Assembly (NCBI GenBank): GCA_021234155.1
Contig: JAJEKV010000064.1
Location: 2,914,001-2,978,000 of the forward strand
DNA length: 64,000 nucleotides
DNA from: Isoetes taiwanensis
Taxonomy: Eukaryota > Streptophyta > Lycopodiopsida > Isoetales > Isoetaceae
Direction of reading: 5' to 3'
Of the stretch, positions 8,832-35,249 are shown piece by piece. A program made the translations under genes and the position numbers. The notes beneath the pieces were generated by a model. The model saw only the letters and a list, made by a program, of their open reading frames with translations, was not told the DNA's origin and ran no database searches. Every line of letters starts with the position of its first letter. Within the stretch, counting starts at the first letter, position 1.

Positions 8832-10336
8832 TGTGACGTTCCAGCATAACATACGATCCGAATACGTATATTATACTGACACGGCACACGTACATGTCAC
8901 CACGACAAGTACTTGAGAGCCGTAAAGGGTTGCACCTAGGGGGCAAGATGCAATTAAAACCCCTTGCCAAGTGGCAATACCCCATTTGGCCCCTTCTGAC
9001 CTAACCCTAAAAATTCATATATAAGGAACCAAAGGGGAAACCCTAAACCTTTCCCCTTTCGCATTTTGGGTTCCCTGAGCCATTCCGGCCAAGGCAAGCT
9101 GCCATTCCGCATTGCCAAGCGCCGCTGAGCTGCCTTTGCACATTAGATTCATCAAGAGCAGCTGTCTTCAGCAAGAACGAGAGCGTGGACGCGATCCGGG
9201 GAGCTGGAGCAAGTCAAGGATCAGGTAACTTGCGATTCTATTGTGCAAAGCCGCCTCTTAGCCCGGCAATGAGTTAGGATAATATGTTAGATCAGTCCTA
9301 TCAGCCTTGTAGATCCCAAGATCACCAGCCGTAATGAAAGAACCTAACCTTGTATGTTAGGTAAGATAAATTAGATCTTATTCAGTATTTCAGTTCTGGA
9401 TGATGATGATGTTCCATTCTATGCTCTCCCGTGTATGTGGGAAGGGGGGTAGAGACCCTGAAACCTTCAGTAGCAAATGATCCTAGATAACCTCATTAAT
9501 TCCCAATTAATACGGCCCGTGTACAAGAGCCCGCCTGGTTGTGGGCGGCGGGGCTAGACCGATGGAACAAGGGGGACTTGTCCCATCACTGATTGACCCC
9601 TCTGGTGTGTAAAGCCTACCAGGGATCTAAGCTGGCTAGGCTTAATGGTTTGCCACTGCGTGTGGGCAAGGCATGAACTCGACACCTCTTGGGTGATCCG
9701 TCGCCTTCAATGAGGTTCAAGTCGAATACGGGCAGTGGCCCTCTAGCCTGTGATGGGCATGCATGCCTCTGGAGGAGAGGAGACTCTCCTCCTGCCTCAT
9801 TGGGACTGGGAAGATGCAACCCAGTAGTAGCCCTTTGGCTACGCACTCGACAGGCTACGGTCCAGTCCCAAGAGTCTTCAACCAACTCTACAAAGTGTGC
9901 ACGGGAGGGGCGGACGGAGTGGACTACCCAACAGCCATGTTCTTATGCCAGTCCAATCCAATTGCCATGAATTCTGTCTGCATTGACTTCTGGAGACCCA
10001 AGCCGTCAGTCGATCCCCCATGAGTCTGAGCCTTGGGTAGGATTCCCCTTATGTTGATGTTACTGATGTTGTTATTACATATGTTATGTTGTGGTGTATT
10101 CATCCTTCGAGGTCACTTGTTGCTATATTGATGTCATGTGCTTATGTTTATTCACGTTTCTGCAGCTAGGACGGTCCCGAGGGAAGACGGGGCAAATGAC
10201 CCATCCATTCTTCCCCATTGATCCAGTGTCAAGGATTGGTGTCAAGTGGATGGCCCCTATCAGTTTGGCTGCCAGGGGGATGAACTCCACCTTCTGATAT
10301 GATGGGAGCATTGTAGAAGAAGTAGGGGACGTCACA
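8832..10336 (+). mobile_element. Long terminal repeat of an LTR retrotransposon (about 1.5 kb)
   Basis: The block begins TGTGACGTTCC and ends GGGACGTCACA, giving matched TG...CA termini with an 8-base inverted repeat. It is followed one base later by TGGTATCAGAGC, the usual primer-binding site complementary to initiator methionine tRNA. A TATA-like catatataagg lies at about 9015 near the LTR start. No gag or pol follows and no second LTR is visible in the window, so the element is truncated. Short open frames at 9616-10023 lie inside the LTR and are not genes. Confidence 0.8.
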
Positions 10337-10337
10337 G

Positions 10338-10700
10338 TGGTATCAGAGCATGATCTTGGTAGACCAAGATCGGGCACTGACCATTCCCTGTTAGAACTAA
10401 CAGTAGAGTTCCAGTCTTAAGAATAGCAACCCAAGCATGAACCTCAAAAATTTGGAAAAAAAAAGAAAAAATTCAAATCCTTAGAGTAGCAAGTAGAATA
10501 ATGCTAAGTTAGGAAGAATTATGGGAAACCCCTGAAAAATTAGGGCCATTAGGAAGTGACCCCTCACAGAGTGCGCCCTGGGCATTTCTAAACTTTTTGA
10601 GAATGCTTCTCGCACACTGTGTGAGCAGTGGACCCATGTTGACCTAGCCAGATGCATAATTAGAGCAATCTGAGAGTAGCTTAAACCTTGAATTTGAGCT
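10338..10700 (+). mobile_element. Primer-binding site and leader of the truncated LTR element
   Basis: TGGTATCAGAGC at 10338-10349 is the tRNA(iMet)-type primer-binding site. The following leader is non-coding and carries the first copy of an imperfect hairpin motif. At about 10700 it is broken by a short interspersed repeat. Confidence 0.75.
10560..10626. repeat. Hairpin motif copy 1
   Basis: cccctcacagagtgcgccc, then a spacer containing catttctaaactttttgagaatg, then cttctcgcacactgtgtgag. The two arms are imperfect inverses (ctcacagagtgcgcc against ctcacacagtgcgag), giving a stem with a loop of about 30 bases. This copy is in the LTR element's leader. Confidence 0.8.
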
Positions 10701-10703
10701 AGG

Positions 10704-10878
10704 AATATGTAGCATAATAACAGGGGGTTACTTTTTGTTTTTTATACGTTTTTTCACATGGTTTTTCTATGATTTCGTTGTTGTATTCATTGAGGTGTAC
10801 TAAATAGTATTTCTAGAGTGCACCCTTTATGGGCCGTTAATTTTCGTTGGCTGAAACAATCCGAGGGTTGTTGTCTTT
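10704..10878 (+). repeat. Interspersed repeat R1, copy 1 (about 175 bp)
   Basis: The repeat starts AATATGTAGCATAATAACAG and ends near GGGTTGTTGTCTTTC. It matches 33698-33868 on the opposite strand nearly end to end and 12735-12878 over most of its length. It is non-coding. The copy inside the LTR at 33.7 kb has an unoccupied counterpart, so R1 is mobile. Confidence 0.8.
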
Positions 10879-10899
10879 CTCTGCATGTTTGTGCATGAA

Positions 10900-11075
10900 C
10901 ACTGCGCATGTGTATGCATGTGCATGTGCACGTGCATGTGCACGTGTGTGCATGTGCATGTGCATGTGCACGTGTGTGCATGTGCATGTGCATGTGCATG
11001 TGCATGTGCATGTGCATGTGCATGTGTATTCTGCTTGTGCATGTGCATGTGCATGTGCATGCGCATGTGCATGTG
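10900..11075. repeat. (CATGTG)n microsatellite
   Basis: A run of CATGTG and CACGTG hexamers in two blocks separated by a short ttctgcttgtg spacer. It reads as apparent His/Met/Cys/Val-rich frames on both strands, which are artefacts of the repeat. Confidence 0.95.
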
Positions 11076-11782
11076 TACTTGCCCTCTTGGATTCTTGTTG
11101 CCGGAGTGGATGTTTGCTGATGGAAGGTTATCACGAGATGGATTTTTTGCTCACATTTACAAAGGTATTTGTTTTTTTAATGTTTCTTCAGTTAATATAA
11201 TGGTATTTTTTACAAGATATTGGTTTTCTGATTCTACAATGCAATGCTGCAAAACCCGCCTTTGTTTCCTTCACTTTGTCTATTCTAAGATTTGTTGCAG
11301 ATTCTAAAAGAGTTTAGAGTTTTAGGCCCTCTGTTTGCTTCCAACTTCTTGGATATTCCTGGCCTGCTGGATTATTCATAGTAACCAGCCTTTAGCTTCA
11401 ATCAACAAATGGATTCTTGTGCACACAACAGGCGGATTATTCCATGCCGCTTTCTGAGTCGTGCAGATCAGTCAAACAGTGGCCATATGGAGCATCCAAA
11501 ATCATATGGATTGATAAACAATGGTTTCATTGTGAAAGAGAAATAGCTGTAGCTGAAGTAACACGTGGAATGCTAACAGAGCAAGCTTGCTTCAAAACCT
11601 CTATCCTTGATCTCGCTTCACTGACTGTTACAGGAAACCTACTCCACATCACCAAACTGGCCGATTCTCTTCACTTGTTAAACCAAAGCCAGGCAACCCG
11701 TGAGAAAGTGTCACTAAGTTCTTTATGAACCTCACCAATTGTTACTGCAGAGTAACGTTGATGTTGTTGTCTTTCATGCAAT
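11076..11782. other. Spacer; possible exon at 11417-11728 (+) of unknown function
   Basis: A 103-codon plus-strand frame (11417-11728) is richer in coding-like composition than its surroundings and is preceded by pyrimidine-rich sequence with AG (ttgttgcag at about 11300). I recognise no family in it (segments such as IIWIDKQWFHCEREIAVAEV). It could be a remnant exon or chance. Confidence 0.25.
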
Positions 11783-11938
11783 GGTTTGTGAATAAAACAT
11801 TATTGTCAAGCATATCAATGTCTAAAGCTTTTATTTGATTCAATTTTATTTTGTTACTAAAGGTTTGTGAATAAAACATTATTGTAGAGCATATCAGTGT
11901 CAAAAGCTTTTATTGATTCAATTTTATTTCACTAGTAA
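11783..11938. repeat. 79-bp tandem duplication
   Basis: The unit starting ggtttgtgaataaaacatt occurs at 11783 and 11862 with about ten differences. The following sequence to 12400 has no recognisable content. Confidence 0.85.
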
Positions 11939-12734
11939 AATTCTATTTTCTAAATTAATATCAATCTAACCAATTTCTTTCCTTTACGTTCATGCAGACT
12001 ATAGAATCTCTCAATCCATCAATTCCACATGACATTTCTTCGATGCCTGAAGTCAACATGATGTTGATCCAACATTACTGTACTAGAGAATCCAATAAAT
12101 GAAGATCAAGTTCAATTAGTCCCCGCCACCATCAAGCAACAACCACCACCAAGCATGGCTAAGACCCTATTGATGTGTTGTTATTATAGTTGGTTGGTTG
12201 GTTGGGTTTACGCGGCGCAAGTAAATAGGCTAACCGCCCTCGTAAGATTTGTTTGATAGGCAAATCAACGAAGATGTATATCGTATCTTAAGCCGCTATC
12301 TATTTTGAGTGCTTCAAAATTGCTATAATACTCTTGCTGTCTTCAATGGCTTAATAAATTTTTAAATAATATGCTTTTAAAGCGTATGTAATTAAGTTAC
12401 ATTATGCTATAATATTATAGTTACTCAGGCTTCATATTAGTTTTTTTTTTTTTTTTTTTTTTTTTGTTATAATGCTAGATATTACATATTACATATTGCT
12501 ACATGTTTTGCATGTTTACATGTTTTTACATATGTTTGGTTTTTCTTATTCCTTAATCTACACCGTACGTAAAATTCCTCGTTTGTGGGGTATGCAAGTA
12601 CAAAATTTGCTATACTGTATAACAAGATTTGCAAAATACTATAAGATTTGAAGCAAAATACTATATGGTGTTGATTTTGTACGTGCAAAATATAATTATA
12701 AGGGCTCTCGCTGCCCTACGTCACCCCCCGTATG

Positions 12735-12878
12735 AATATGTAGCATAATAACAGGGGGTTTTCTTTGTGTTTTTGTACGCTTTTCACTAAGGTTTTCCTA
12801 TGATTTCGTGATGTATTCAAATGGATGTACTAATGCGTACATCTAGAGTGCACCATTTCTGAGCCATTGATTTTAGCC
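12735..12878 (+). repeat. Interspersed repeat R1, copy 2
   Basis: The copy starts AATATGTAGCATAATAACAG and follows copy 1 through ctagagtgcacca, then diverges near gagccattgatttt. It lies inside the large inverted repeat, next to tcaccccccgtatg. Confidence 0.75.
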
Positions 12879-12891
12879 CTTTTTTTTTCAA

Positions 12892-13063
12892 TGGTCAACA
12901 ACCAATGGCTCACAACAAAAGCCCTTTTTTTGTGCGTGTGGTGCATAATGGTCAACAACCAATGGTCGACAACAAAAGTCCCTTTTTGTGCGTGTGGTGC
13001 ATATTGGTCAACAACCAATGGCTCACAACAAAAAGCCCTCTTTTTTGTGTGTGTGGTGCATAA
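12892..13063. repeat. Minisatellite, three units of 56-59 bp
   Basis: Units start tggtcaacaaccaatggctc at 12892, 12949 and 13005, and each ends with a gtgcgtgtggtgcata-like segment. Both strands read as repeating peptides, which is a by-product. The sequence from 13064 to 13700 is unique, with no gene I can support. Confidence 0.9.
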
Positions 13064-14486
13064 TGGGCACATGAAGGGCTTGAAGGGCGCATGTAGTGCG
13101 GTTTCCCGGCAACACATTTCTTATCATAACTTTTGATCGAGCTCTTTGCTTCGGATGATTTTTATTGCGTTGGAAAGCTCTCTCAGAGATCTTTTTGATA
13201 GTGTATGATATGGATATGTTTGGTTAAATTATCTATGCTAAAACAGCAATTTTTCGGCCGGGTTTGGTAGGTTTTCACATCCTACCCGGTGATTATCTGA
13301 TTGCGCTATTGGATATTGTTTTATGGCTCATTCGAATGAAGCTTGCAAACAATTACCATGCATTTTAGATTTTGAGGCAGTTATTAAGCAAATTCCAAGG
13401 CTTCTAGATCCTTGTGCTAACAAGCGAGAAAAGTTCCCCACTTTGGTTTCTCACCACAAGAATCCATGGAGGCCAAGCCGGCTCTTTGTTAAATTCGGTT
13501 GAAAAATGTTTGTGTATGGGTGTTGCAAACTTTGACTTTTGAGAATAATGGGATCAATCTGCTCTATCTTTATGGTAACTTTTACTTATGTTCTATTTGT
13601 TTTATTGTGATGAAATTCAAAAGCTCTGATGCAATGTGATGAAAGCCTCAAATGAATTCTAGTTTTTTCGATTTGAATTCTAAAATTTTTGTCACACCTG
13701 GGGAGGGGTGACGTCCTAAGGCCCCGAAGGGCCAAAATTTTTTTTTTGCAACACAAACCATTAACATCCAACATATAAAAATTAAATCCCCAACATATAA
13801 CGACCAACACACATAACAACCATTGACATCAACAACCAACACATAACTACCATTGACATTAATTAACACAACCATTGGGTCCAACACATTTAAATTAAAA
13901 TCCCCTTAAACCCCCTTTGGTTTGAGTGCATATTCACCGCGAGGGCCCTCATAATTGTATTTTGCACGTACGAAATCAACACCATATAGTATTCCGCTTG
14001 AAATCTTATAGTATTTTGCGAATCTTGTTATACAGTATAGCAAATTTTGTACTTGAATACCCCACAAACGAGGAACTTTACGTACGGTGTAGATTAAGGA
14101 ATAAGGGGTGAATATGCCTATCCAACAGCTCTCGTTGCCCGGAGTCACCCCCCGTGTGAATATGCACCCAAACCAAAGGGGGTTTAAGGGGGATTTTAAT
14201 TTAAATGTGTTGGATCCAATGGTTGTGATAATTAATGTTAATGGTAGTTATGTGTTGGTTGTTATATTAAAAAAAAATTTGGGCCCTTTGGGCCCTTAAA
14301 AAACCAAACATATGTAAAAACATGTAAACATGCAAAACATGTAGCAATATGTAATATGTAATATCTAGCATTATAACAAAAAAAAAAAAAAAACTAATAT
14401 GAAGCCTGAGAAACTATAATATTATAGCATAATGTAACACTAAGAAACTACTAATAAAACGAAAATTTGAGTCAAAAAAGGTGTGA

Positions 14487-14548
14487 CCCCTCACAGAGTG
14501 TGCCCTGGGCATTTCCAAAACTTTTGACAATGCTTCTCGCACACTGCA
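14487..14548. repeat. Hairpin motif copy 2, upstream of the H3-like frame
   Basis: cccctcacagagtgtgccctg and cttctcgcacactgc match copy 1 closely, including the ccctgggc variant. It lies about 115 bp upstream of the TATA box of the H3-like unit. Confidence 0.8.
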
Positions 14549-14661
14549 TTGGTGGGTACTTTTTGCCTAAAGGAACCCAATGTATCAATCCAGCAGACAC
14601 TAATGCTTTACAGAATGGTACGACATAAAATTGCAGGTCCAAACCCTAAAATCCCCAGACC

Positions 14662-14773
14662 TATAAATAGACATTTAGGGTTCTTCAATTTCACTTTCCT
14701 TCTCCAGCTAGCTGCTCTCCGTCCAAGAAGGCAATTTTTAGGCGCTCCGAAGGCGATCATCATATTTCAAAAC
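14662..14773 (+). promoter_or_regulatory. TATA box and 5' leader of the H3-like unit
   Basis: TATAAATA at 14662-14669 is followed by a C/T-rich leader (cactttccttctccagctag) of about 100 bases up to the ATG at 14774. A similar arrangement at 16509-16630 supports this being a real promoter module. Confidence 0.6.
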
Positions 14774-15915
14774 ATGGCCCGCACCAAACAAACCACTCGA
14801 ATGGTTGTACCAGACGATTACGTCAGCGCCCAGGTTCTTGCAGCCCAACAGAAGGTCAGAGAGGCTCAGGAGCGAGCCAGGCAAGAAGAGAACCCTGACC
14901 CAAATCCTGATGCTGAGGAGGAGGATCAGGAGCAGCAGGACGAGGAAGAATATCCCCAAAACCCTGAAGAGTAGGAAAACCCCAAAAATCAGGGCAATGG
15001 AGGAGGGGACGAGGATGACGAGGACGAACCACTGCCAGAGGAGCTGGTACGTAAGCTGAAGAAAATGGCAAAGAGGAAGAGGGCGGCGAAGAGAAAGAGA
15101 ATTGCGGAGAAGGAGGAGCGGGAAAGCTTGAGGAAGGAACGACAGAAATTGAAGGAGGACAAAGGAAAGGACCCCGAAGTGCCCAAGAATCCCCGGCAGA
15201 AAACCAAGTCAACACCAACAAAAGGGGTGAGCATAAGGGAGCAGGATCCCGACAGGCCGTCGTCATCGTCATCAGACACCGAGTCGGATGAAGATGAGTC
15301 AAGGGTTCCCCACCCAGCAGAAGGCTCGGGACCTTCAAATGTAGATGCTAAGGAGGAAGAATCTGCCGCAGCACCCCCATACCCCAAGTGGCCGAATCCA
15401 AAGAAGGGCAGGCCGGCACGGGAGTCGTATGTACTCAAACACGACCGAGAGTACAGGAAGAAGCTAAAGAAGTAAAACGAGTACATGAAAATGTACGAGG
15501 AGTACTCGAAATGTTACGAAGAACATAAGGTAACGTACGTGGAGGGAGGAAGGCCATCTAAGAAGAACACTTTGAAGCCGTCCCCGGAGAGACCCGTACC
15601 CCCGAAGAAGCCAAGGAAGAGAAAGGCGGACTCCTATTTTGCAAGAGCTGCTCGGGAGATCCGACATTTTCAGAGGAGCTACGGACTGCTGATACCAAGA
15701 GCTGCTTTCGCAAGATTGACCCGCGAGATCTTGCAAGAATTTGGCAAAACCAAGAGAGTGACCGATGATATGTTACTCGCATTACAGGAAGCAGTAGACA
15801 AAAGCTAGTTCAACACTTCGAAGACTCACTAGCATGTGCTCTCCATGCAAAAATGGTCACTTGTATGCCTAGAGATATGAAATTAGCTAGATTTATTAAG
15901 AAGGAAGATTGTTAA
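14774..15915 (+). pseudogene. Histone H3-like protein with a very long charged N-terminal region; two stops, one frameshift
   Basis: One reading frame runs from ATG 14774 to 15804, interrupted by TAG (14972-14974) and TAA (15473-15475). After a one-base shift it continues at 15805 to the TAA at 15913-15915. That is about 380 codons against 136 for H3. The start is MARTKQTTRM, against ARTKQTARK in H3. Residues about 10-285 are acidic blocks (EEEDQEQQDEEE), a lysine/arginine-rich coiled-coil-like stretch (KRKRAAKRKR), a serine/acidic tract (SSSSSDTESDEDES) and two AT-hook-like GRP cores (residues 212-214 and 259-261). The end matches the H3 fold in order: REIRHFQRS..LLI (alpha N to alpha 1), F.RLTREILQEF (alpha 1), LLALQEA (alpha 2) and, after the shift, HFEDSLACALHAK (alpha 2) and VTCMPRDMKLARFI (loop 2, alpha 3). 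Loop 1 has the H3 length, not the longer CENH3 length. An intact version would be a nuclear nucleosomal histone. As written, it is broken. Confidence 0.82.
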
Positions 15916-16062
15916 CTTATTGTAATTACAAAACTTTTTGTAAATATAAAAATATATTTTGATCAAGTTTGAAGTGCAAAAGTGTAAATAATAAGGTTGT
16001 AATAATGATATGTGCATTTGGAATTAGCTAATTTGGACAAAAAGCCAGTATTTTTGACCCCA

Positions 16063-16130
16063 CCCCTCACAGAGTGCGCCAGGAGCATTTCCAAACTTTT
16101 TTAGAATGGCTCTCGCGCACTGTGTGAGTG
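16063..16130. repeat. Hairpin motif copy 3
   Basis: cccctcacagagtgcgccaggagc ... ggctctcgcgcactgtgtgag (given in two arms). It has the best-paired arms of the four copies and carries the caggagc variant shared with copy 4. It lies 3' of the H3-like frame. Confidence 0.85.
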
Positions 16131-16265
16131 GTCGGCCACTGATCTATGTCCAGACTTGCCCAAATGTAGAAAGTAAGGGCGCAGACTGCCCTAACTCAAC
16201 GAGATAAGTAGGATTCTACCCTTAGATTGTAAAATTTGAGCCATCTTGGATCCAAACAAGAGCCC

Positions 16266-16334
16266 ACCCCTCACAAAATGCACCAGGAGCATTTCCAAAC
16301 TTTTTGAGAATGGCTCTCGCGCATTGTGTGAGTG
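16266..16334. repeat. Hairpin motif copy 4
   Basis: cccctcacaaaatgcaccagg ... ggctctcgcgcattgtgtgag. It lies about 200 bp after copy 3, with diverged flanking sequence also shared (aaatttgagcc), suggesting a local tandem repeat. Confidence 0.82.
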
Positions 16335-16508
16335 GTTAGACCAAAATGGCCCAACCTCATTCCAGCCACCTCCAAATTAGATGAAATTTGTTGCAATAGG
16401 ATCCTTAGGATGCACTCTTTTACTTACATTACCTATGAATTGCATAGCAGCACCTCAAAGTGATAGATATCCCCAAACCCTAAAAAAAATTTAAATTAGG
16501 GTTTTGCC

Positions 16509-16690
16509 TATAAATAGGACAACAACCCTTATTTGCACCTTACTCTGTTGCTCCTCACTCCAAGGCGATTTCTCAGCTCCCAGAGGCGCTTCCATATCTG
16601 TTTGATAACCCCAGCAACACTAGCATCATGGCACAGAAGAAAATGATTACACATATGCAAAGATCATCTACTCCACAATAATATGACACC
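16509..16690 (+). promoter_or_regulatory. Second TATA/leader unit, frame immediately broken
   Basis: TATAAATA at 16509-16516 is followed by a leader resembling the one before the H3-like frame (ctccaaggcgattt, gaggcgctt) and an ATG at 16628. The frame stops after 17 codons. This looks like a truncated duplicate of the H3-like unit's promoter. Confidence 0.5.
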
Positions 16691-16804
16691 CAGTATAGTT
16701 AATAGAAGTTATAGGATAAATCAAAATGATCACGCATGGTGATTACAACTAATTTAGATGCCCGAAGGCTTACACAATGATACAAAAAACATATAAAACT
16801 AAGA

Positions 16805-17240
16805 ACTTGGGCCAGCGTCGTCTTGCTTTGGAGTAGGAGGTTGGGGTGGGCGCCGATATCGAAGTATAGTGTGATGCCTGGGCTGACTAATACGGCAGTT
16901 GTTGATGGTACCTCCGGTGGAAATGCGATGGCCAATGGAGCGGCCACGAGCAACTTCATGCTCGTCCAGGCCACAATGTCTTGACCCAGGACGGCAAGGG
17001 CAAGGTTGCGATGTACCAACACAAGGGTAACCGTGCAGTAATTGACCTTCTTATGGCCCGCCAGGGTGGATAAAGCACGCAGTGCCCACCATGATGCTTC
17101 CGCCTCAGGGCCAAGGTCCTTGGCAAAGAAGAGAACATGTTCTTGCCTAAAGGCAGAGAGGAAGAACCGCGTGAGCTGATTCCCCTTATCTAGATTTATG
17201 GTGACCTATTTATCCTTGTCCTCATGTGTCTCCTCTTTGA
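16805..17240 (-). pseudogene. Unidentified minus-strand coding remnant
   Basis: One frame (about 17240 down to 16750) has a coding-like composition and includes QEHVLFFAKDLGPEAEASW and LVHRNLALAVLGQDIVAWTS, with a stop near its upstream end. I do not recognise the family. The higher GC content than its flanks suggests a former gene piece or mobile-element ORF. Confidence 0.3.
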
Positions 17241-19391: not shown

Positions 19392-22102
19392 CTAATCAAC
19401 ATTGCCTTCCACCTTTTGCTTTTTCCACTTGTAAGCAGCTTCTAAAATTTTCAAGGTCGGGGCCGCTCCTAATTCTTCAGGGAATATGTAATCGATATAC
19501 TCCTCATATCTGATGATGCATAAGAACAGATTAGATTAATAAAGAATGTATTGTTGCTCACCATAAGAAAACATTTCTCCATTTCGTAGCTTAAATTAGA
19601 ATTTGGAAAGCTGAAGGTACATACCCAGAAGGAGTTCCATCCTCTGACATGATTGGCCTTTTCCGTTTGACCCGCCGTGGCATCTTTCGTTGAACCAAAG
19701 CCACATCCCCAAAATCGCCAAAGCTCCTCTCCATTTCCTTCCATTCATCAAGAAGCATTGCTCTTTCCTCTTTTTGTTCTGGTGCAGATGATCTAAGCGA
19801 TTCAAATGCCCTTTCAAAAACACCTGAAACATTTTGCCGGGATGAGAAGCCTGACACAACTTTTAATGTAAATTTACCAGGCAAGACATATTAATACCTC
19901 TTGAACGAAGTGCCCTCTGCATGCTTTGCTCCTGCAGTAGACTTTCATCAGGTTCTCTACCTTCTTCTTGTGCTGACAGCTCTTCCTCAAGTGCAATGCC
20001 AGCTTCAAACTTCGCATAGCTCAACCACACCTTCAAGTGCTTCGTTCTGTCAAGGAGCCTCTCATATAACTGTCTTGTTCGTTCATGCTCTCCTTCTGAA
20101 ATTTCAAATTCTATGTATGCCTGCAGAAAATAACAAACAGTTTAGCACTGGTCATCAAGGAGAAAGTCATGAAGGGAGGAAGAGCATAGATGGCTGCTGA
20201 CTGAAAACTACACGAACCTTCCATAAAAGTTCTGGCATATCTAAGACAGGCTGCATAATTGCTAGCTCGAAAATTGATCTCCCTCTGTCTGTTTCCCCGA
20301 GGGACCTTTCAAGCTCTGCGTATTTACTCCATGCATAACAATTTGCAGGAGCCCATTCCAAGTACTTTTCATATAAAACTCGACAGCGGTCTATATTTCC
20401 CAGCTGTAATTCAATCTCGATGTAGGTTTTGAAAATCTGAACATACAAACCAAGTTATATTCATTGCTTAAAGGTACTTATTGGTCCCAAACGCACTACT
20501 CAGAATATAAAGCTTGCTCTCAATTAAAAAAGCCCAAAAAGGAGGCCTCAAAGACCTCGTAAGGCACGCACCTTGTCCTTTGGAGCCACACCAATTGCAT
20601 TGCCTAATACAAGACGTGCAGCTTTTAAGTTTTTCTGCCTGATCTCAAACTGCGCAGCCATTATCCAGATTTTTGCAAATGAAAACTTTTTATGCGGAAT
20701 TAACTTTAAGCACTCCCTGAAACAGGAATAACTTAAATATAAGCATAATTAAGCTTGAAATGAAAATGCATACAAATTATGCCAATATCAGGTCATTACC
20801 GGTAAACTTCTTGGGTACGCTCCATATCCTCCGCTTCCAGCTCCTCATATAGAGCATAAAATATCCTATAAAAAAGGTGTGCAAATGAAACATTGAAGTG
20901 GGTTCAAAGGTGCCAGGACATGAATTTTGAAACAAGGCTGCTACATACCATATGTAAATATAGCGTTGCCAGTATCTTTTTTCTTCTGCAGGAGGAACAT
21001 TAGCAATGGCTCTTTCATAAACTTCCCTAATACGATCTTTGTTGCCTACACTTTCCTCGAGCCTTATATAATCAAACCAGACATCATAATTGCGCGAGTT
21101 TTTTTTTATTTCCTCTTCATACTGAAACCTTCTCTTCCCTACAATGACATCTTCAATCCCCTCCCTATCGCCGTACTTTTTTTCAAATGCAACGAATTTT
21201 TTGTACAAGTCCTCAGCTTGTCCTTTGGGAATGTGATCCAACGCATATTTGTAGATGCATCGAGACCTTTCAAGTTCCTTGCATCGTTCTTCAAATTCTG
21301 CGAAGGCAACAAACAACTCCTCTGTTTGCCCATCCTCTTCGAGCTGTGCAACTGCTCGTTCGTAGCAACTTCTGGCCCTAGTTACTTCCCCATTCTTGAA
21401 CTCAAACTTGGCAAATTTCACCCATGCCTTCACAGTAGGCAGGCATTGCACATACCTTTCATAGATCGCCCTTGCTCGATCAACTTCGTTATATCTCAGC
21501 TCAAACTTAATATAAGCAGACCATCCATGGTGATCTGGTTCCCACGCCATCCATCTTTCAAAAATCTGTCTAGCACCTGCAACATTTCCCAGCATTTCCT
21601 CCATGTGAATGTATTTATACCATAATTGATCAATGCGAGGCAATAAGGATACAGCCCTGTCCCATACATTTCTGGCATGATTTATGAACTTATTTTTCAT
21701 CTCCATTTCCGCATACTTGAGCCATAACGTGGTGTTTCTGTACTCAACCTCCAGCGCTCTCTCCCAAACCGAACGAGCCCTCGCAAAATCTTTCTGGGTT
21801 TCTTCCCATTGAGCATATTTAACCCAAACACTGACATTCCACCTTACCCGTCTTATAAGATCCTCGAACTCCTTTCTCCGGCGAAGACGGTACTCAGAAA
21901 GCTCATCATAGTCAGTGATCTTCTGTTTAGGAGGACGGATTTCTGCTTCCTGTCGTTCACGAGCTTCCCGAAGGATCTGCTCTGCTGTGATTTGAATAGG
22001 GGCAGGTGTCTTATTCTTAACCCTAGTGGGACGAGGTAATTTTACCTCTGTCTCTTTACGAGTGAGGTACCCGAGGGTGGGTTCCCCTTCTCTGGACGCC
22101 AT
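19392..22102 (-). CDS. Crooked neck-like pre-mRNA splicing factor (CLF1/CRNKL1 family), 7 exons
   Basis: Seven exons join with GT-AG sites and matching phases into 707 codons: 22102-20949, 20865-20800, 20716-20572, 20436-20218, 20120-19898, 19823-19625 and 19509-19392 (stop TAG). The N-terminus has the conserved [19 protein letters not shown] segment, then HAT (half-a-TPR) repeats with the usual W..YA..E and RAR..WERAL patterns. The length matches the plant orthologues of about 700 residues. The family is a scaffold of the Prp19/NineTeen complex in the nuclear spliceosome, needed for catalytic activation; it is normally essential and single-copy. All repeats seem intact. The native upstream region is only about 130 bp before a nested retrotransposon complex begins, so its promoter may be altered. 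Confidence 0.95.
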
Positions 22103-22235
22103 AGCCGGAACAAGCTTCTGAGCTTGGAGCTCAAAGGGTAAAATTTTAGGGTTTTCCCCCTCTGATATATCTCTATGGCCCTTTCTGCGCCTTTTTAACT
22201 ACTAGTTTGTCCCTATTTTGGCCTTCTGAACTACT
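22103..22235 (-). promoter_or_regulatory. Short proximal 5' region of the splicing-factor gene, and target-site copy
   Basis: Only 133 bases separate the ATG from the LTR. They contain agggtttt and gggttttcccc elements common in plant 5' regions. The last five bases, ctact at 22231-22235, are the target duplication that recurs at 38734-38738. Confidence 0.6.
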
Positions 22236-22768
22236 TTTTACGAATAAGGGCAAAAAGCAATTGATAGAAAGATATATTTGGCAAACACAAGCGCTAAAAT
22301 GGATTGTTTATTCAATAAAGGAAATACAGAGAACAACATAAGTAAAGAAATAGTCCAACCGCTCGACCACGAAACTAGCACTTCAAAACAATGAAGTAAA
22401 CCGCTAGGAGCCTCCAAGACTCCGCCGCTAGTTCCTCCCCTGAACTATGATGTAATCTCTCTCAGAGCCAATCTCTCTCGAGACAACCAATGATGCCACA
22501 TTATTCCACAACATGTTCTTATAAACCATAAGGATCTATTCTCGTCCTCTCATCCATTATTGGCTCTGGCTCCTGTAATACACCAGACTAAGATTAGCAT
22601 CATCTATTCTTTAATCTCCTCCAATCATAGATAACCAATAATAGAGTAGCTAATTCTATGGTGCACTATGATTGGCATGACAATTAGAATAGCTAATTCT
22701 AATGCCATGGTTGTATAAAAGTCTGGACTTTCTCATAACATTCTAACCTTTAGAATGTGTTCGTAACA
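22236..22768 (-). repeat. LTR-A (533 bp)
   Basis: Reads TGTTACGAACAC... on the minus strand. A TTTATAAG TATA-like box at about 22520 and an AATAAA signal (GAATAAAC) toward the end fit U3-R order. Its transcription direction is toward the splicing-factor ATG at 22102. It is nearly identical to LTR-B and LTR-C. Confidence 0.85.
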
Positions 22769-23808
22769 GCCCGTCGGGGTAAAGAATCAACTGTCCTCAG
22801 TTGGCAAAGTAGATGAACCCCCTGGAAATAATATAGGCCTGTTACATTCACTGCGCAGATAGACTTCCCTGTAAGCTTCCAACAGAGGTAAGTAATGCTC
22901 GAAATAATCTTCTGATTTCCATCCTGCTTCAGTATATGGCACCTCCTTATACTTTACCAAATATCTGCGTTTAATACCACGACCCTTATGCCTCATAATC
23001 ATCTCAGGTTGATACACTGTATTATCATCCACTAACACTGGTTCTGATGCTTGCGGCACTAATTGTGGGTTAACTCATTTAAATGACCTGAGATATTCCA
23101 CATTAAAAGAATTATGCATCTTCCAAATATCGGGCAATTCCAACCTGTAAACATTATCATTTATCTTTTCAGTGATCCTAAAAGGTCCATAAAACCTGGT
23201 AAGAAGCTTGTGCTTTTTCTGTTCGGAAGGAGCACGTCTTTCCTTAATGATTTTAATGAATACCCAGTCATCCACCTGATATAGAACCTGTCTGCGTTTC
23301 CTGTTCGCTTGACGAGTGTACCTTTCATGTGCAACAGTGAGTGCTGCGCTGGTGGATTCCAAAACAGCATCCATATCCTTAGCAACTCGATCTGCCTCTA
23401 TCACACCTGCCACTTTAATAACCGGATTTGGAGGTAAACGTCCCTGTATAATATAAAAAGGTGATAAACCTGTGGCTGAGTGTGTGGCCATATTATAAGC
23501 AAATTGAACCACTGGAAGATACCGCTTTCAATCAAAAACATGCTCATGTACAAAACTGCGTAGCATGCTTAGAAGAGTTCTATAAGTAACTTCTGTCTGC
23601 CCATCCGTCTGAGGATGGAAAGCTGTGGAGAAATGCATCCTTGTACCTAAATTTGTAAACAATGCTCTCCAAAACTTGCTGCAAAACTTTGAATCTCTGT
23701 CAGAAATTATTACCTCCGGCAATCCATGGTTCTTAAATACTTCTTTCAAAAATAATCGTGCAGCATCATGAGCTTTTAACGTCTTTTTGCAAGGAATAAA
23801 GATTGCAT
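22769..23808 (-). pseudogene. Gypsy pol sense arm 1: integrase C-terminal half plus chromodomain
   Basis: Minus-strand frames give the integrase core (HFSTAFHPQTDGQTEV, with the preceding ISDRDSKF), the VQFAYNMATHSATGLSPF segment and a C-terminal chromodomain (PEMIMRHKGRGIKRRYLVKY). The chromodomain directs chromoviral integration to heterochromatin in known relatives. Frameshifts and stops break the frame at about 23060 and 23520. The reverse transcriptase and RNase H expected upstream are absent. Confidence 0.85.
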
Positions 23809-23810
23809 AT

Positions 23811-25048
23811 GGGTAGTGATTTTCACATTAAAACAGACCAACAAAGTATTCAGTTTTTATTGACACAAGCTTCTGCAAACCCACGCCAGGTTAAATGGGC
23901 AGAGTTGTTATAGTGTTTTGGGATTGATACTAATGCTATTCATTATAAGCCAGGTCCACAGAATAAAGTTGCTGATGCTCTTAGTCGCGTGCGTCATTCA
24001 GATGACATTATTCAGATGAATAATTTTTCCCTTTGGCGGGAAAGCACATTTGAGGCAATGAAGGGTATGTATGAGCAAGATGATGAATTTGGTAGTGTTT
24101 GGATTGATTTGCATGAAAGCCAGCAACGTATTATTGACAATTTCTATTTACGCAAAGGATATTTGTTTTTCAAAGATTGTCTTTGTGTTACTCCACAATT
24201 CAGGGAAACGGTTCTACGGGAATGCCATGAGGTAGCAATAGCAGGTCATAGGGGTATTTTTAATACTCATGATTTGGTTTGAAAGTATTTCTATTGGAAA
24301 ACTATAAGAAAAGATATTGTTGCTTTTGTGGAAAGATGTCTTGTGTGTCAGAAAACCAAAGATTCTCATGCCAAAGTATGACACTAAGTATCCCGAAAAA
24401 ACCTTTTCAGCATATCAGTATGGACTTTGTTAGTGTTCCACGGAGCAGACAAGGTAATGATCAGGTTTGGACCATTGTGGACCGTCTGAGTAAGTATGCA
24501 ATCTTTATTCCTTGCAAAAAGACATTAAAAGCTCATGATGATGCACGATTATTTTTGAAAGAAGTATTTAAGAACCATTGATTGCCAGAGGTAATAATTT
24601 CTGACAGAGATTCAAAGTTTTACAGCAAGTTTTGGAGAGCATTGTTTACAAATTTAGGTACGCAGTTTTGTACATGCGCATGTTTTTGATTGGGAGCGGT
24701 ATCTGCCAGTGGTTCGGTTTGCTTATAATATGGCCACACACTCAGCCACAGATTTATCACTTTTTTATATTATACAGGGACGTTTACCTCTAAATCCAGT
24801 TATTAAAGTGGCAGAAGATGTGATGGAGGCAGGTCGAGTTGCTAAGGATATGGATGTTGTTTTGGAATCCACCAGGGCAGCACTCTCCGTTGCACATGAA
24901 AGGTACACTTGTCAAGCGAACAGGAAACGCAGATAGGTTCTATATCAGGTGGATGACTGGGTATTCACTAAAATCATTAAGGAAATACGTGCTCCTTCCG
25001 AACAGAAAAAACACAAGCTTCTTACCAGGTTTTATGGACATTTTCCAC
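23811..25048 (+). pseudogene. Gypsy pol antisense arm 1: RNase H to integrase, opposite orientation
   Basis: Starting at GGTAGTGATTTTCACATT, plus-strand frames read the end of RNase H (IKTDQQSIQFLLTQAS, NKVADALSR), the integrase zinc finger (RCLVCQKTKDSH) and the core (SMDFVSVPRSRQGNDQVWTI), then the C-terminal part up to LLTRFYG. There it fuses directly to the LTR. It is inverted relative to sense arm 1. It carries several stops and a deletion at about 24660. The chromodomain is missing. Confidence 0.85.
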
Positions 25049-25534
25049 TTTTACGAATAAGGGCAAAAAGGCAATTGAAAGAAAGATATATTTGGCAAAC
25101 ACAAGCGCTAAAATGGATTGTTTATTCAATAAAGGAAATACAGAGAACAACATGAGTAATGAAATAGTCCAACCGCCTGACCACGGAACTAGCACTTCAA
25201 AACAATGAAGTAAACCACTAGGAGCCTCCAAGACTCCGCCGCTAGTTCCTCCCCTGAACTATGATGTAATCTCTCTCAGAGCCAATCTCTCTCGAGACAA
25301 CCAATGATGCCACATTATTCCACAACATGTTCTTATAAACCATAAGGATCTATTCTCGTCCTCTCATCTATTATTGGCTCTGGCTCCTGTAATACATCAG
25401 ACTAAGATTAGCATCATCTATTCTTTAATCTCCTCCAATCATAGATAACCAATAATAGAGTAGCTAATTCTATGGTGCACTATGATTGGCATGACAATTA
25501 GAATAGCTAATTCTAATGCCATGGTTGTATAAAA
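25049..25534 (-). repeat. LTR-B, left part (continues at 35250)
   Basis: Identical in order to LTR-A from ttttacgaataaggg to ggttgtataaaa, where it is cut by an insertion. The remaining 48 bases (tctggactttctcataac...) resume at 35254 after a 4-bp repeat, aaaa. Confidence 0.88.
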
Positions 25535-25841
25535 GGGTGAAAGCATTCTAGGGTGTACCATCTAAAGTTCTTTTTAGGGAGTGCAAAACTACCCAAAAAA
25601 GTACCCAACACTGGGTACTGGGAACTTGCATAAAGGTCTCAATAAACAATAAGTTTGAGAGTTGATTCATTAATTTTAATCTCTAATAGTGTTGTTATCC
25701 TCTGATACTATAGATTGACATGTTATTGACCTTCAATTCAAAAGTTTTGAATTGATTTTAATGGGAAGAAACAACAGAAAGTACTAGTTTTAAAAGTACC
25801 CAGTAAAGGTACTTTTGAGGGTTCCAAAAGTGGTACACCGT
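25535..25841. mobile_element. Terminal-inverted-repeat element, main part (rest at 35230-35249)
   Basis: The left end is GGGTGAAAGCATTCTAGG followed by GTGTACCA. The right end, read inverted from 35249, is GGGTGAAATCATGCTATGG and then GTGTACCA at 25838-25831. After removal of the inner retrotransposon the two ends form a terminal inverted repeat of about 27 bp with three mismatches. It is flanked by aaaa (25531-25534 and 35250-35253). Total size is about 320 bp with no coding sequence, so it is a MITE-like element. The superfamily is unclear from the A-rich target. Confidence 0.8.
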
Positions 25842-27740
25842 TATTGACCCTAAACCTGGCTTAAAGGTCAACCACAAGGAAATTGGGGTTAGAACCTCCA
25901 GATCACTTAAGGTGATCAGTCTATGCAAGATAAATTTAAATACAAGTTCAAAAATGTGAAGTTCTATACCTTTCACATTTCCAAAAACTGGCACCTTTGC
26001 CAAAACAGATGTGGTGATGAGATGTAAATTGATTTTTTGAGTCAAGCACTATAGACTTGGTCAAAAAAGTTGTAGGTACCCAACAGTAAAGCCTCTGACC
26101 AAGTCAGAGACTAAATTTATGAGTTATTCGAGCTCAAAGTGTGGTTAAAATTTGGTCAATAGAGGTCAAATATGGGAAACAATGATCAGAAAATGAGATT
26201 TGAAGTTGCTAAGCTTGTTTTTGAGAATTTCCAAAGCAAATATATTGCAGTGGTGATAAGGAAGAGAGGCAAGTGGTCAAATTCTCATTTAGATGTGTAA
26301 AAGTATTTTTTGTGGCTGGATTTGGCAAAATACAGTCAAAACTGTTCAAAACATAGAGCAATTTTCTTGAAGTTGAGCTAGACGTGATGTTTTTGGATGA
26401 TTTCAACTCCTTTGGCTTCCACAAGTCCTAAGAATAGTTGGCAAGTGGGCCAAAAGAACTAGAAAACACACGAGAATTTTCTGGAGAATATTTTGTGGCA
26501 AGAATTGTTAAGAAAAATATCAGAGATTAATTTGACAACTTGGCAATCAATTTGAATTGATATGAAGGTAAATATATCATGATAACAATAGATAAGGATG
26601 CTTCATAGCTTTAATCACAGGAAAATAATCATCACAAGTAATGTCAACTAGATCTTGTAAATCCAATTGAGGAGAGCTCAGGAACTTCAAGGATCGTTCA
26701 GATCTTGCTCAGCAATGATCAATGTAGGATCTGAGTACTTCTGGGCCTTCAAAAATGTTGAGGTTGTGTTTCCCCTGTATATAGTTTCGAATCTCGGTTT
26801 CAGTGATTTTAGGTAATAAATTTAGGCTTAATCTATTGCTTAAGTTCCGGAATCCAAGAATAGGGTGGTCTCAGAGAAAATGGAACGCGGGAAGGCATGA
26901 TTCGAGCTGGATTTCCAGTTCTAGGGTTCTTCAGCTGTATTTTCGCATAATTTGCGCGATACGGTTTCGTATTTTTGTAGGAATATACCCTGTATATGTT
27001 GTATTCAACCCTTTTTAAAAGCTTGGCCAATGATTCAAAGACCTTTACCCATAAAATACTTAAAGGAGATTATAGCCCAATGACCATAGGGATGATTGCT
27101 CACACGTGCAAGAGGATAGGGAATCTTTGAGGCATTTTTTGACAAGGTTGGGAATATACCACTGAAGATATGATGGAATAAGAATGAAGGTAAAAGAAAT
27201 TATGAGGGACATTTGAGGGGGCAAGGAAAAAATAAGGAGAAAGGAATGATATTTTTTGAGACAAAGGCTTAAGTTGGTTTTGAAATAGGCAAGGTGATGG
27301 CACATTGAAGGAATCAATAGGGAATTTGATGAAGATGGCAATTATGGCAAAGCAATCATGGCAAGTGAATGAATCAATGGATATGAAAACAAAGTTGAGC
27401 CAAAAAGTGCTAAAATGGGAGTAGTGAGGTGGAGCAAAGGGAAAGATTAGAAACTATACACCATGGGGTCTTCCAAACTCTAAACTTCCAATCTTCAAAA
27501 TATGTCTTCCAAACTTCATAACCCAGATTCTTCTAGAGCATACCCTTTAACTAAGCCAAAAAATACCTCTTATGAACTTTAACCTTGAGCTCTTGTTGAC
27601 TTGAAGAATGAACATCCTTTGACCTCCATATCAATGTTGAGTACCAAGAATCTTCCAAACTTTGACCTAGTATTCCAAGATAAGTTGGCCTAGTTTGAAT
27701 GCATAGATCACAATTAGCATGTTGCCCTTTGGGGGCAACA
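25842..27740 (-). repeat. 3' LTR of the inner retrotransposon
   Basis: It aligns along its length with 33118-35229. The low-coordinate end is tattgaccctaaacc, altered from tgttgaccc. The other end is gggggcaaca. It lacks the 171-bp R1 insertion and a segment of about 27 bases found in the partner. Small open frames within it recur in both LTRs and are not genes. Confidence 0.88.
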
Positions 27741-28640
27741 TCTCGCCAAAACAAGAAAAAGGCTGGTCCCCTCAGCCATATGATGTCAAAAATAAATAAC
27801 TAGAGGTGTCTTCAGCTTTGTACCAAGATGTCTAAGTGGGAATCATGATAGAATAAGAGTGTGAAGTGCAAACGTTGATGAGATGAGTGTGAATGTGGTG
27901 ATGAAATGATGTGAATGGAATATAATGAGTGAGAAAAGGCAAAAGTGAGTGTGAATATGATAGGATGATGGTGCAATGGAGATGAAGTGATTGTGCAAAT
28001 GTTTGAGATCTCGCCAAAACAAGAAAATGCATGTCTTCTACTTGATCTTCAAAAAGTTGCAACTCTGCTATGGTGGTAGAGATGAATTGCAGAGTGCTTT
28101 TCTTCTCTTGGGAATGAAAGCAAGAATAAAAAGTCTAAATGGAAGGTAGGGCTACTTATGACAGATGAAAAAGAATGGAGGAAGAGTGCACCTGTCATGG
28201 AAACACACAAACCAATTAGTCTCAAATCCTTGCAACTCTGCTATGATGGTAAAGGTGACTTTGCAGAGTGCTGTTAAGGTATGAAAAAAAAGAATAGGAG
28301 GTTGAATGGATGGTAGGAATATTCTAAGACAGATGAGAAAATGGAAGAAGGATGCTCCTGCATATGACACTTGGTAATCATTAGTATCAATCCTGTTCTT
28401 GAGATCATGTGTACTCTTATCTGGTAAGATCAACCTAAAACATGACCAATTCTATTAGAGTATGTGCTCAAAGTCAAGCTAATCTAACTGCTGGAATAAT
28501 GTACTCAAAAGTCAAACTGATTTAACTACTTTAAACCTACTATAAATCTCTAAGCTTTTAATGTAAAAAGAGGGACAAGCAAGCATGCTGGTCCCAATAC
28601 CTTTTCAGGTGCAGGATGTTGATAGGATTTGGCAGTGGCA
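27741..28640. other. Non-coding 3' internal region of the inner retrotransposon
   Basis: Lies between the integrase end and the 3' LTR. It contains a diverged direct repeat of about 180 bp (tgcaactctgctatg at about 28058 and 28237) and two copies of atctcgccaaaacaagaaaa (27740 and 28011). Confidence 0.7.
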
Positions 28641-28644
28641 TTCC

Positions 28645-29480
28645 TTAAGCAACCTCTTGTAACCAATAAGAATTAGTACCTGCAGGTTCCAGCACTACAA
28701 AGGGTCCTTCCCAAATATTATCAAATTTGCCAGCTGAGTCTTCCTTTGACTTGTTCCATTTGAGAACAAGCTCTCCTTTCTTAAAGGTGCCTTGTATTTT
28801 GTGTGCAGCCTTGAATGCAGCCAGATCTTTGGCCTTTTTCAGCAAATTAGTGTTCTCAGCTTCCATTCTAAATGTAACAGGGCGTCCAATCTTTCCTGTG
28901 CATGTTCAAAAGGTAAGCACAATTTATGAGCTAATCTCAAGGAAGGTAATTCAAGTTCTACTGGTAGAACTGCTTCTATGCCATAGACCAAATTGAAAGG
29001 TGTATGATTTGTAGCTGTTTTGATAGTGACTCTATAAGCCCAAAGTGCATCCACTATTTTGATATGCCAATCCTTTTTGTTAATCTCAACTGTCTTCTGC
29101 AAGATATTTTTCAACACTTTGTTAGTAGCTTCAGCTTGTCCATTACCTTGAGGATAATATGAAGAACTTTTGGTGTGCTTGACCTTCAAAATGCTCAACA
29201 AATTAGCAATGACTTCATTAACAAAGGGGGTACCTCTATCATAATGTATCTGGAAAGGAATACCAAATCTGGAGCAAACAAATTCATGTAAAAACCTTGC
29301 AGTTGTGAAGGCATTAGCTTGCCTCAAAGGTATAGCCTCTGCCCACTTAGTAAAATAATCTGTAGACACAATAATATGCTGATGTTGACCTGTAGAAGAA
29401 GGATTAATGGGACCAATATAATCTAGCCCCCAAATTTGAAAGGGTCCTGGAGATATGATAGGATTCAAGGCAGCTGGCAA
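28645..29480 (-). pseudogene. Integrase segment of the inner retrotransposon
   Basis: Minus-strand frames read IWGLDYIGPI near the start of the core, STDYFTKWAEAIPL, then YYPQGNGQAEATNKVLKNIL, and a C-terminal segment (FDNIWEGPFVVLEPAGTNSYWL). Catalytic D and E positions are recognisable. A frame break at about 28850 splits the C-terminal part. Confidence 0.85.
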
Positions 29481-29693
29481 TAAAATTCTTTTACTAAAAA
29501 TTTGACATTGATGGCAAGTTTTTATGACCTCATAGCAATCTCTAAAAACAGTAGGCCAATAATATCCAGACCTGAGAATTTTTTTGCAGTGGTATCCCCA
29601 GCAAAATGTCCTCCACAGATACCTTTATGCATCTCCCTAATAATTAAGGCATATTCTTCTTCACTTACACACCTCAGCAAGATTCCATCCCTG

Positions 29694-30690
29694 TTAACTT
29701 TGCACGACATTGTCTATCAGCTTGAATTGTTTGCACTTGTCCTTGAGTCGTCTTCTCTGACTTGGAGTGAGGCTTGGAGAGATGATCCCATGTTGTAAAA
29801 AATCTTTAATAGGTTGCTGCCATCCTCCTTTGGCTTGATCTCCTTGAGTTACTTCTAAGTGTGCTACTGCAAGTGAAGTGTCAGTAGTATTCAATTCATC
29901 TTCATGATCAAAAAATATATAAGGCAAGTAGAGGCTAGGATTTCGTGTCAAGTGCAACTCTTTTACAGAAATATCATAACTTTGCAACTTACAAGCCCAT
30001 CTCTGGATCTTTGGTTTATTAGTTGCTTTACCAAATAGCAAGCCCATTGGGTTTTGCTTTATATGAACTTGAACTTGGCTCTTCAGAAGCAAATGTCCTT
30101 GCCTATTAATAAGAAACATGAGAGCAGCTGCACTTTTTTCTATTCTGGTGTATCTTTCTTCAAGAGCAAACCATTGTTTGCTTGCAAAGACTATAGTATG
30201 CTTGTCCTGCAAAATGGCTAAACCTATGGCCTTTTTAGTAACAGTGATATAAACTTCAAATGGCATGCTCAGATCTGGTTTTTTCAAAAGAGTAGCTTCA
30301 CATATAGATGAAATGAGAAAGTCAAAAGCCTCTTGGCATTCTGAAGTCCATATAATAGGTATGTGCTTGCTTTCAGATTTAGAAAATTTACCTACCCTTG
30401 TCAACTTAGAGATGGGACTTAAAATATGAGCAAAATTTGGAATATACATTCTAAGAAAACTCGTCATACCAATAAAACTTTTAACCTGCTTTAGATTCTT
30501 GGGAGGTGCTAGCTTTTTGAGAGCTTCAATCTTATCCTGAGCAACCTGAATACCCTGGCTGGATACTTCATGTCCTAATAGCTGCCCTTTAGATGCAAAA
30601 AAGATACATTTTTTTGGATTTAGATTAACTCCTGAAGTCCTGCATAAAGAGCAAATTTTTGCAAGTAATTCCACATGGTTAGTAGAATGA
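29694..30690 (-). pseudogene. Reverse transcriptase C-terminal part and RNase H of the inner retrotransposon
   Basis: Starts within the RT thumb/connection (GVNLNPKKCIFFASKGQLLG), continues through LKQVKSFIGMTSFLRMYIPNF and the RNase H region (ASKQWFALEERYTRIEKSAA). The RT fingers and palm, with the YVDD-type active site, are absent. Confidence 0.85.
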
Positions 30691-30739
30691 GAACCCAAAC
30701 AATAGTAATTTCCCAAGAAGTAAAGTAAGCGAGCATTCC

Positions 30740-31120
30740 CATTACCTGATTTCTCAGGGACTCCATGTCAGCATTCTTGGCCTGATACTCACCACTAACC
30801 TGTCTGCAAACTAACTGAGAATCTCCATAGATGTGTATGACTGAAATATCCATAGCTTTAGCTTCTTGAAGACCTGCAATCAAAGCCTTGTACTCTGCTA
30901 CATTAGAAGTTATTTGGGAAAAAATCCTTCCTACCTTAGCCAAGAGTTTATTGAAGGTATTCTTTAGTATAGCTGCAGATGAAGCTACATTTAGTTTCTT
31001 TGAAATCCCTCCATCAAACCATAAACACCCTTCTTTTCCATTCTCAGAAGGTAGTGCACACTCTCTAATCAAAGGACTCAGATCAGTTTTCTTTGTGCTA
31101 GGGGTTGCTAGACTATAAAA
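30740..31120 (-). pseudogene. Archaeal-type RNase H domain placed before the RT remnant
   Basis: LWFDGGISKKLNVASSAAIL, ITSNVAEYKALIAGLQEAK and VIHIYGDSQLVCRQVSGEYQ give the four-part pattern of the extra RNase H found in Tat-lineage elements. There it normally follows RT-RNase H, but here it precedes the RT remnant, joined near LLAKICSLCR. Confidence 0.78.
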
Positions 31121-31439
31121 TCCTAGGGGCTCTTCTATAAGCATTTCTTTAATAAAGTGTACCTCTTCCTTGAAGCCATAAGAACCATCCTGGTTGTAAA
31201 TTGTAGCTACTTGAGTGCCATTTGAAATGGTGCATCTCCCTTCAGACCAGATTGGCCTAGCATCAACTGTAGCCATCCACCTTCTCCCTAGCAAGAGATC
31301 ATATATATCTGCATCTTCTCCTAAATCTTCAAAATCAACAATAACAAAATTGGCGGCTACAACAATGCCTTGGTGTTATAGGAACTTTGGTCACAATCCC
31401 AAGCTGGTGCTATTTTAGCATTAGAAAAGGATTTTAACA

Positions 31440-31570
31440 AAGCAGGATGACCTTTTATCTATCTCAAGCCCACATTTTTTCATAACATGATAAGGCATGA
31501 TATTTAGAGGTGAGCCTCCATCAGGCAACACATTGGAAAGAAAGAAACCTCCTAGAGTAATTTGAACACA
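31440..31570 (-). pseudogene. Retroviral-type aspartic protease segment
   Basis: The minus strand reads VQITLGGFFLSNVLPDGGSP, then NIMPYHVMKKCGL. DGGS replaces the common DTG/DSG active site, as in Athila/Tat elements. Frames are broken on both sides. Confidence 0.7.
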
Positions 31571-31952
31571 TAAATGCACCTGGATCTTCTTCATTTTGAG
31601 TCAAAATAAGATTAGTGGCATTTGCAACACCTACACAAAGCCCTTTGCCTCACTAAAAGTAGTTTGTTGCAACAACTTTTTCCTATAACCAGGTGCAATT
31701 TTTAATAAGGTAAATAAATCCACACTTACTTTGGAATTTTTCAGTAAAACATCCAACTCATCTAGATCTTGATAGGTGGAGCTATTTCTTAGGGAGGAGC
31801 TTCCATGACAGGAGGTAGTGGCAATGTTGATTTCCTGGAATGCTCTGGAACAAATTTGTTAGGCTCAACAGGTCTATGGGTATCCCCCATGCTCCTGGTT
31901 TGTACCACCATCACTTCCTCAGTCTTTGGCATCTCTATAACCTGCACAAACC

Positions 31953-33074: not shown

Positions 33075-33094
33075 GAGTTCTCGAAATCCAGGTA

Positions 33095-35229: not shown

Positions 35230-35249
35230 ACCATAGCATGATTTCACCC

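Follow-up and report, generated by a model that had tools for sequence, protein, structure and literature searches.

Retrotransposons of the lycophyte Isoetes taiwanensis encode a protein with a histone H3 fold and a giant tail

A gene at positions 14774–15915 of a 64,000-nucleotide stretch of the Isoetes taiwanensis genome (contig JAJEKV010000064.1; the window) encodes an H3-fold protein that starts MARTKQT and carries a tail of ~290 residues. With near certainty this gene is the open reading frame (ORF1) of an LTR retrotransposon, here called F1, and a second retrotransposon family of the same genome, F2, carries an H3 fold behind a different N-terminal domain. Few eukaryotic proteins are as constrained as H3, which is also the substrate of transposon-silencing marks. 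We put at roughly 0.6 the probability that the retrotransposon ORF1 works as an H3-type chromatin protein.

In the window, ORF1 (14774–15915, plus strand) is broken by two in-frame stops (TAG at 14972–14974 and TAA at 15473–15475) and one frame change near 15803–15808. Its N-terminus, MARTKQTTRM (14774–14803, plus strand), equals H3 residues 1–8 with one change, A7T, and has M at the K9 position. About 280 residues, mostly charged and probably disordered, separate this tail motif from the H3 fold (15626–15915, plus strand), whose helices αN to α3 are spread over two frames, with the H3 C-terminus in 15808–15915. Pfam Histone matched 15476–15805 (E = 1.9e-10), and solved H3 chains in the PDB matched with best E-values of 1.6e-7 and 7.9e-8. 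These matches bear out an earlier description made from the letters alone (the sequence-only reading), which had given the coordinates and part order of a frame with a MARTKQT start and an H3 fold at its end. The C-terminal piece, likewise described there as H3, has its own Histone match at 15808–15912 (E = 1e-4), though its 23.0 bits are below the 26.4 cut-off. The position-specific composition score of ORF1, a measure of coding signal, was 56.7 against a maximum of 21.0 in 1,000 dinucleotide shuffles, and two or fewer stops in the best frame occurred in one shuffle of 1,000. In length and tail the protein departs from H3: F1 proteins have ~379–388 residues versus ~136, and of the conserved tail up to K36 only residues 1–8 are kept. 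Fold matches and tail comparison together agree with the proposal that this is an H3-derived protein with a giant tail unlike that of canonical H3.

The sequence around the gene has the parts of an LTR element. A 5′ LTR of 1505 bp (TGTGACG...CGTCACA; 8832–10336, plus strand) has DNA matches in 23 of the 29 other family loci that were read, and it matches a further 39 scored sites elsewhere in the genome at 88–93% identity. Directly behind it lies a tRNA primer-binding site, TGGTATCAGAGC (10338–10349, plus strand), whose exact 12-mer also occurs ~630–765 nt upstream of ORF1 in 15 of the 29 other loci. The first part of the leader (10350–10703, plus strand) contains one hairpin repeat and has matches in 29/29 loci, some perhaps through the hairpin repeat alone. 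Comparison with the family loci places the second part, with another hairpin repeat and a TATA box at 14662, at 14431–14773 (plus strand). Between the two, an insertion of ~3.7 kb with foldback inverted repeats (10704–14430, no strand assigned) splits the leader, which is continuous in locus L053; the insertion yielded a single 72-nt match to the F1 loci. Its foldback has nested inverted repeats at 12396–14438, with arms up to 100% complementary. Behind ORF1 follows a conserved spacer (15916–16633, plus strand) that matches in 29/29 loci and contains two hairpin repeats, a second TATA box near 16509 and, judging from the ORF2 reading in F1 relatives, the ORF2 start codon at 16628. The copy breaks off at this point. 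With its frame broken, its leader split and its end lost at ORF2, the window copy is dead.

Several further observations concern the window itself. The hairpin-like repeat of ~65–77 nt occurs four times, at 10556, 14480, 16056 and 16260, as part of the F1 leader and spacer. The family loci contain it too, and in the window two of its four copies stand ahead of TATA boxes. The sequence near 16507 had been considered as a separate promoter copy. It is weak by itself, 15 of 500 shuffles being equally good, and was later accounted for by the spacer and ORF2 start conserved in F1. Next to the truncated end is a fragment of an F2 ORF2 in opposite orientation (16702–17205, minus strand; 65% identity over 91 residues to loci L019 and L021). 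A crooked-neck (CLF1) splicing-factor gene has an open exon, with 473 codons free of stops, at 20777–22198 (minus strand; best PDB match 8xi2_J, E = 1.3e-198), which provides a small control on assembly quality. Nested, duplicated pieces of Ty3/gypsy elements (RNase H, integrase) fill 22236–38733.

A search of the genome (1,658,258,908 bases, 1,110 contigs) with the window protein gave at least 133 matches in 117 scored stretches, of 16,582 first-look candidates; the host genome thus holds at least 117 F1 relatives. The 29 other loci that were read are 71–87% identical to the window protein over the matched part. Because the arrangement of tail plus fold recurs across the genome, in several cases without stops, chance joining of unrelated parts in the window is excluded. 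Many F1 copies carry stops. Five of the 30 loci, window included, have an unbroken full-length ORF1 of 379–388 residues (L030, L031, L033, L042 and L043), among which L031 is short of a few residues towards the end of α2 and L030 matches Pfam Histone with E = 2.2e-17. The window gene is therefore a decayed copy within a family whose intact members lie elsewhere in the genome. This much of the earlier reading stood; the family itself proved to be ORF1 of an LTR retrotransposon and no ordinary host gene. An early interpretation, that of a solitary H3 variant of the host which had decayed only recently (~3–4% neutral change), was dropped once the genome search revealed a multi-copy family. When the genome was scanned for an exact DNA motif encoding ARTKQTAR, 62 occurrences were counted, against 0 for the reversed control.

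Of the 40 LTR matches that were scored, among them that of the window, eight lie within 6 kb upstream of a same-strand ORF1 start, five of them at 608–760 nt, and on contig C1031, by coordinates alone, LTR matches lie on both sides of an ORF1 start. Pfam Retrotrans_gag was found in locus L101 (E = 1.6e-5, above its cut-off), and locus L059 gave a weak zinc knuckle (0.0072) and a weak protease (0.014). The order of F1, pieced together from several loci up to gag/protease, is LTR, primer site, leader, ORF1, spacer, ORF2 and gag; copies followed further were nested or truncated. F1 ORF2 had no Pfam match. Loci L042, L043 and L048 are close together on contig C907 (46.17–46.75 Mb), where L042 and L043 share 97.3% identity across 4 kb; this cluster may reflect segmental duplication or recent insertion.

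Among 5.77 billion proteins searched, none shared the window tail. The 12 matches returned were mostly ordinary or tandem-fused H3s, together with one CENH3-like protein of Macleaya and two proteins with other tails, and a second protein search gave one match among 11 candidates, without the same tail. Two H3-fold proteins, P0010 and P0012, have a different extended tail containing MARTKW, and are possibly another, separate instance of H3 acquiring a novel tail. A literature search, for which subscription papers were mostly out of reach, found no H3- or histone-encoding retrotransposon in print. The word 'histone' has 0 occurrences in the available text of PMC7264820 and PMC13317346, and is absent from the available main text of the Isoetes taiwanensis genome paper (PMC8566536).

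We also searched the genome with the Histone family, which gave 8,704 first-look candidates, the best 150 of which were scored, all at 144.5 bits or more. Nine loci that were read (L001–L008 and L023) are ordinary H3 genes. In 15 of 16 places from the same list, most chosen for long open frames, a near-canonical H3 fold stands behind a new N-terminal domain of ~330–355 residues (L009–L022 and L024); these make up F2. The F2 protein has at least 93 matches in 88 scored stretches. Two complete elements of ~13 kb, on contigs C1018 and C1034, are bounded by 5-bp target duplications (GGAAA and AAAGT) and by LTRs of 1.6 kb that are 93.9% and 93.7% identical pairwise in the two copies. Between the LTRs lie the H3 gene, ORF2, a further ORF, gag, protease, RT, RNase H, integrase and chromodomain, in that order. 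Pfam recognised RVP_2, RT_RNaseH, Integrase_H2C2 and Chromo, and gag under its cut-off (E = 0.0021); RT was recognised by eye. With two LTRs, a 5-bp target duplication, protease, RNase H and integrase, F2 is an LTR retrotransposon. Pfam had no match for the N-domain, ORF2 or one further ORF of F2.

The ORF1 proteins of F1 and F2 have only the fold in common, and F2 proteins are without the ARTKQT start. A possible remnant of the H3 tail in F2 (STGGK, with P at the place of K9) was suggestive by eye and was rejected, since between 5 and 201 of 300 shuffles did equally well in the 15 copies. Homology between the ORF2 proteins of the two families was likewise dropped (E = 0.02 only).

To gauge selection, we compared intact copies. 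Among four intact F1 copies (6 pairs; L043 was left out as a near-copy of L042), dN/dS was 0.15–0.20 in the tail and 0.08–0.20 in the fold. For F2, nine of 36 possible pairs were tried, L009–L015 having been dropped as saturated, and the eight computable pairs gave 0.07–0.21 in the N-domain and 0.00–0.07 in the H3 fold. The choice of intact copies may bias against nonsense change, but hardly against missense change. Tail and fold of F1, and N-domain and fold of F2, are thus under purifying selection; the element lineages keep these proteins, tails included.

The N-terminus was tabulated in 63 copies, comprising 23 of the 30 F1 loci (window included) and 40 further copies whose match begins at residue 1 or 2. 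H3 residues were kept as follows: A1 in 61, R2 in 51, T3 in 62, K4 in 63, Q5 in 56, T6 in 60, A7 in 54 and R8 in 56, so that only K4 is kept in every copy. At position 9, 30 copies have M, 18 have V, 11 have I and 3 have K; one has A, next to a local change of frame. At position 10, 59 of 63 have V and not S, and beyond it the tails have no H3 resemblance. The three copies bearing K9 (L069, L099 and L100) are distant relatives, 56–58% identical over the match, so K9 may be the older state in F1.

The fold keeps many H3 features and lacks others. In eight aligned F1 fold rows, residues that we take to be H3–H3′ contacts in H3 are kept at C110 (7), H113 (7), R116 (8), D123 (7) and L126 (8), and R69 (8) and R83 (7) are kept as well. 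R63 is replaced by P in all eight rows and the residues before αN are unlike H3, so a normal nucleosome with the F1 protein is not assured. The F1 fold equals host H3 at 44–47 of 91 residues.

For the descent of the fold, we used a CENH3/H3 panel of the best 120 of 7,998 matches (8,000 candidates scored), including the fern CENH3 of Adiantum nelumboides (P0110). No row of the panel is more than 48% identical to the window fold, whose mean identity is 44.5% to CENH3 and 45.1% to H3, and the diagnostic columns divide 6 to 6. A first tree put the window fold on the CENH3 side, with the H3 side not rejected (p = 0.342). In a larger, unrooted tree, into which L031 was not taken, F1 formed a separate clade (100/100) and fell on the CENH3 side (99/98), again with the H3 side not rejected (p = 0.184), and F2 grouped with host H3. 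The sequence-only reading had called the protein unlike CENH3. Its point about loop 1 was right, as the alignment gives this loop H3 length, one residue short of plant CENH3; the rest of that contrast is less secure, given where the best trees place the fold. Joining F1 and F2 in a single clade is weakly rejected (p = 0.037), suggesting that H3 was taken up twice.

The best trees, with the fold on the side of CENH3, would fit an ordinary host gene for an H3 or CENH3 variant that has decayed amid retrotransposons. Loop 1 of H3 length and an H3-side placement that the trees do not reject (p = 0.34 and 0.184) speak against a CENH3 gene, and the LTR, leader and spacer travel with ORF1 in the family loci, which refutes a host gene altogether; we give this account next to no weight. 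A captured host H3 fragment, useless to the element, also seems very improbable to us. Transduction of host genes by plant LTR retrotransposons is known (PMC7264820, in its available part), and stops are common among F1 copies, but in both families dN/dS is much lower than 1, whether in tail, N-domain or fold, and the N-terminal octapeptide is widely kept.

If ORF1 instead serves the element, it could act as an additional nucleocapsid protein, coating RNA or cDNA and using the H3 fold for dimerisation only. A tail that is both very basic and acidic and a position directly in front of ORF2 and gag would suit such a protein; we nevertheless regard it as unlikely, for a mere coat protein would not need the conserved exact start of H3 residues 1–8, and gag has a zinc knuckle of its own. 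The main rival is integration targeting through K4 readers, in which the H3-like protein would tether the pre-integration complex to chosen chromatin by way of H4 or of a K4-type tail, silencing being uninvolved. K4 is the sole N-terminal residue kept in all 63 F1 copies, and F2 has a chromodomain behind its integrase, a kind of domain described as a putative targeting domain (PMC12786077, available part). Targeting leaves the near-constant hydrophobic residue in place of K9 unexplained, and we consider it possible but rather improbable.

The reading that we favour, an H3-type chromatin protein made by the element, predicts that the F1 fold would pair with host H4 and enter or contact nucleosomes on element DNA or at its target, a step that we infer to be probable. 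The tail could be methylated at K4 and engage K4 readers while offering no K9, and might in this way resist or decoy silencing by K9 methylation; for this second step we have considerable doubt. Nucleosomes containing the F1 protein would then not carry K9 methylation, or ORF1 would trap the K9 methyltransferase as K9M does in yeast. About half of the F1 copies have M at position 9, and on H3 of fission yeast K9M dominantly blocks K9 methylation (PMC5030085, available part). In the same system S10D in cis relieved the trapping by K9M (PMC5030085). Taken with V10 in F1, this relief indicates that the S10 context matters, and it counts against a K9 trap. We know of no trap by V at position 9, the residue in 18 of the 63 copies. 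The lack of an ARTKQT-type start in F2 counts against the decoy. That lycophyte LTR retrotransposons evolved their own H3 variant to counter chromatin silencing is offered as a tentative proposal, less likely than not.

If the proposal is true, a selfish element that carries and multiplies its own H3, maintained by selection, would be making a direct move in the arms race, and its copies would offer a natural experiment in which an H3 tail has K4 but lacks K9. Core histones would join the proteins encoded by retrotransposons. The question can be tested in the existing genome and plant.

Extra ORFs in plant LTR elements are already known, and the core-histone ORF is the new part. Ty3/gypsy elements with additional ORFs (PMC7264820 and PMC12786077, available parts) share LTRs, a primer site and a supplementary sense ORF with the Isoetes elements, and gag-pol with F2, which has RNase H, an integrase zinc finger and a chromodomain; one orchid lineage has its own AlkB-type RNA demethylase (PMC12786077); the extra ORF of F1 and F2 differs in encoding a core-histone fold. 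VANC proteins of VANDAL elements are alike in proposed role only, as element proteins that counter host silencing (PMC10398659 and PMC5735166, available parts). VANCs are sequence-specific anti-silencing proteins of other elements, whereas F1 ORF1 has a histone fold and an anti-silencing role that is proposed. The H3K9M of fission yeast resembles F1 in having an H3 tail with M at position 9, but it is an engineered H3, and in F1 S10 and the rest of the tail are changed too, often with V or I instead of M. Plant H3-like variants share the H3 fold behind a diverged N-terminal part, and a K-to-M change occurs among them (K27M, in a rice H3-like gene), but in the available part of PMC4357034 they are host genes of normal size, and F1 is a multi-copy retrotransposon gene of ~385 residues. 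CENH3/CENP-A, like F1, combines a diverged fold with a variable tail, and many plant CENH3s start MARTK. F1 differs from CENH3 in a loop 1 that is one residue shorter, in a tail several times longer than those of the panel CENH3s, and in being the gene of a retrotransposon.
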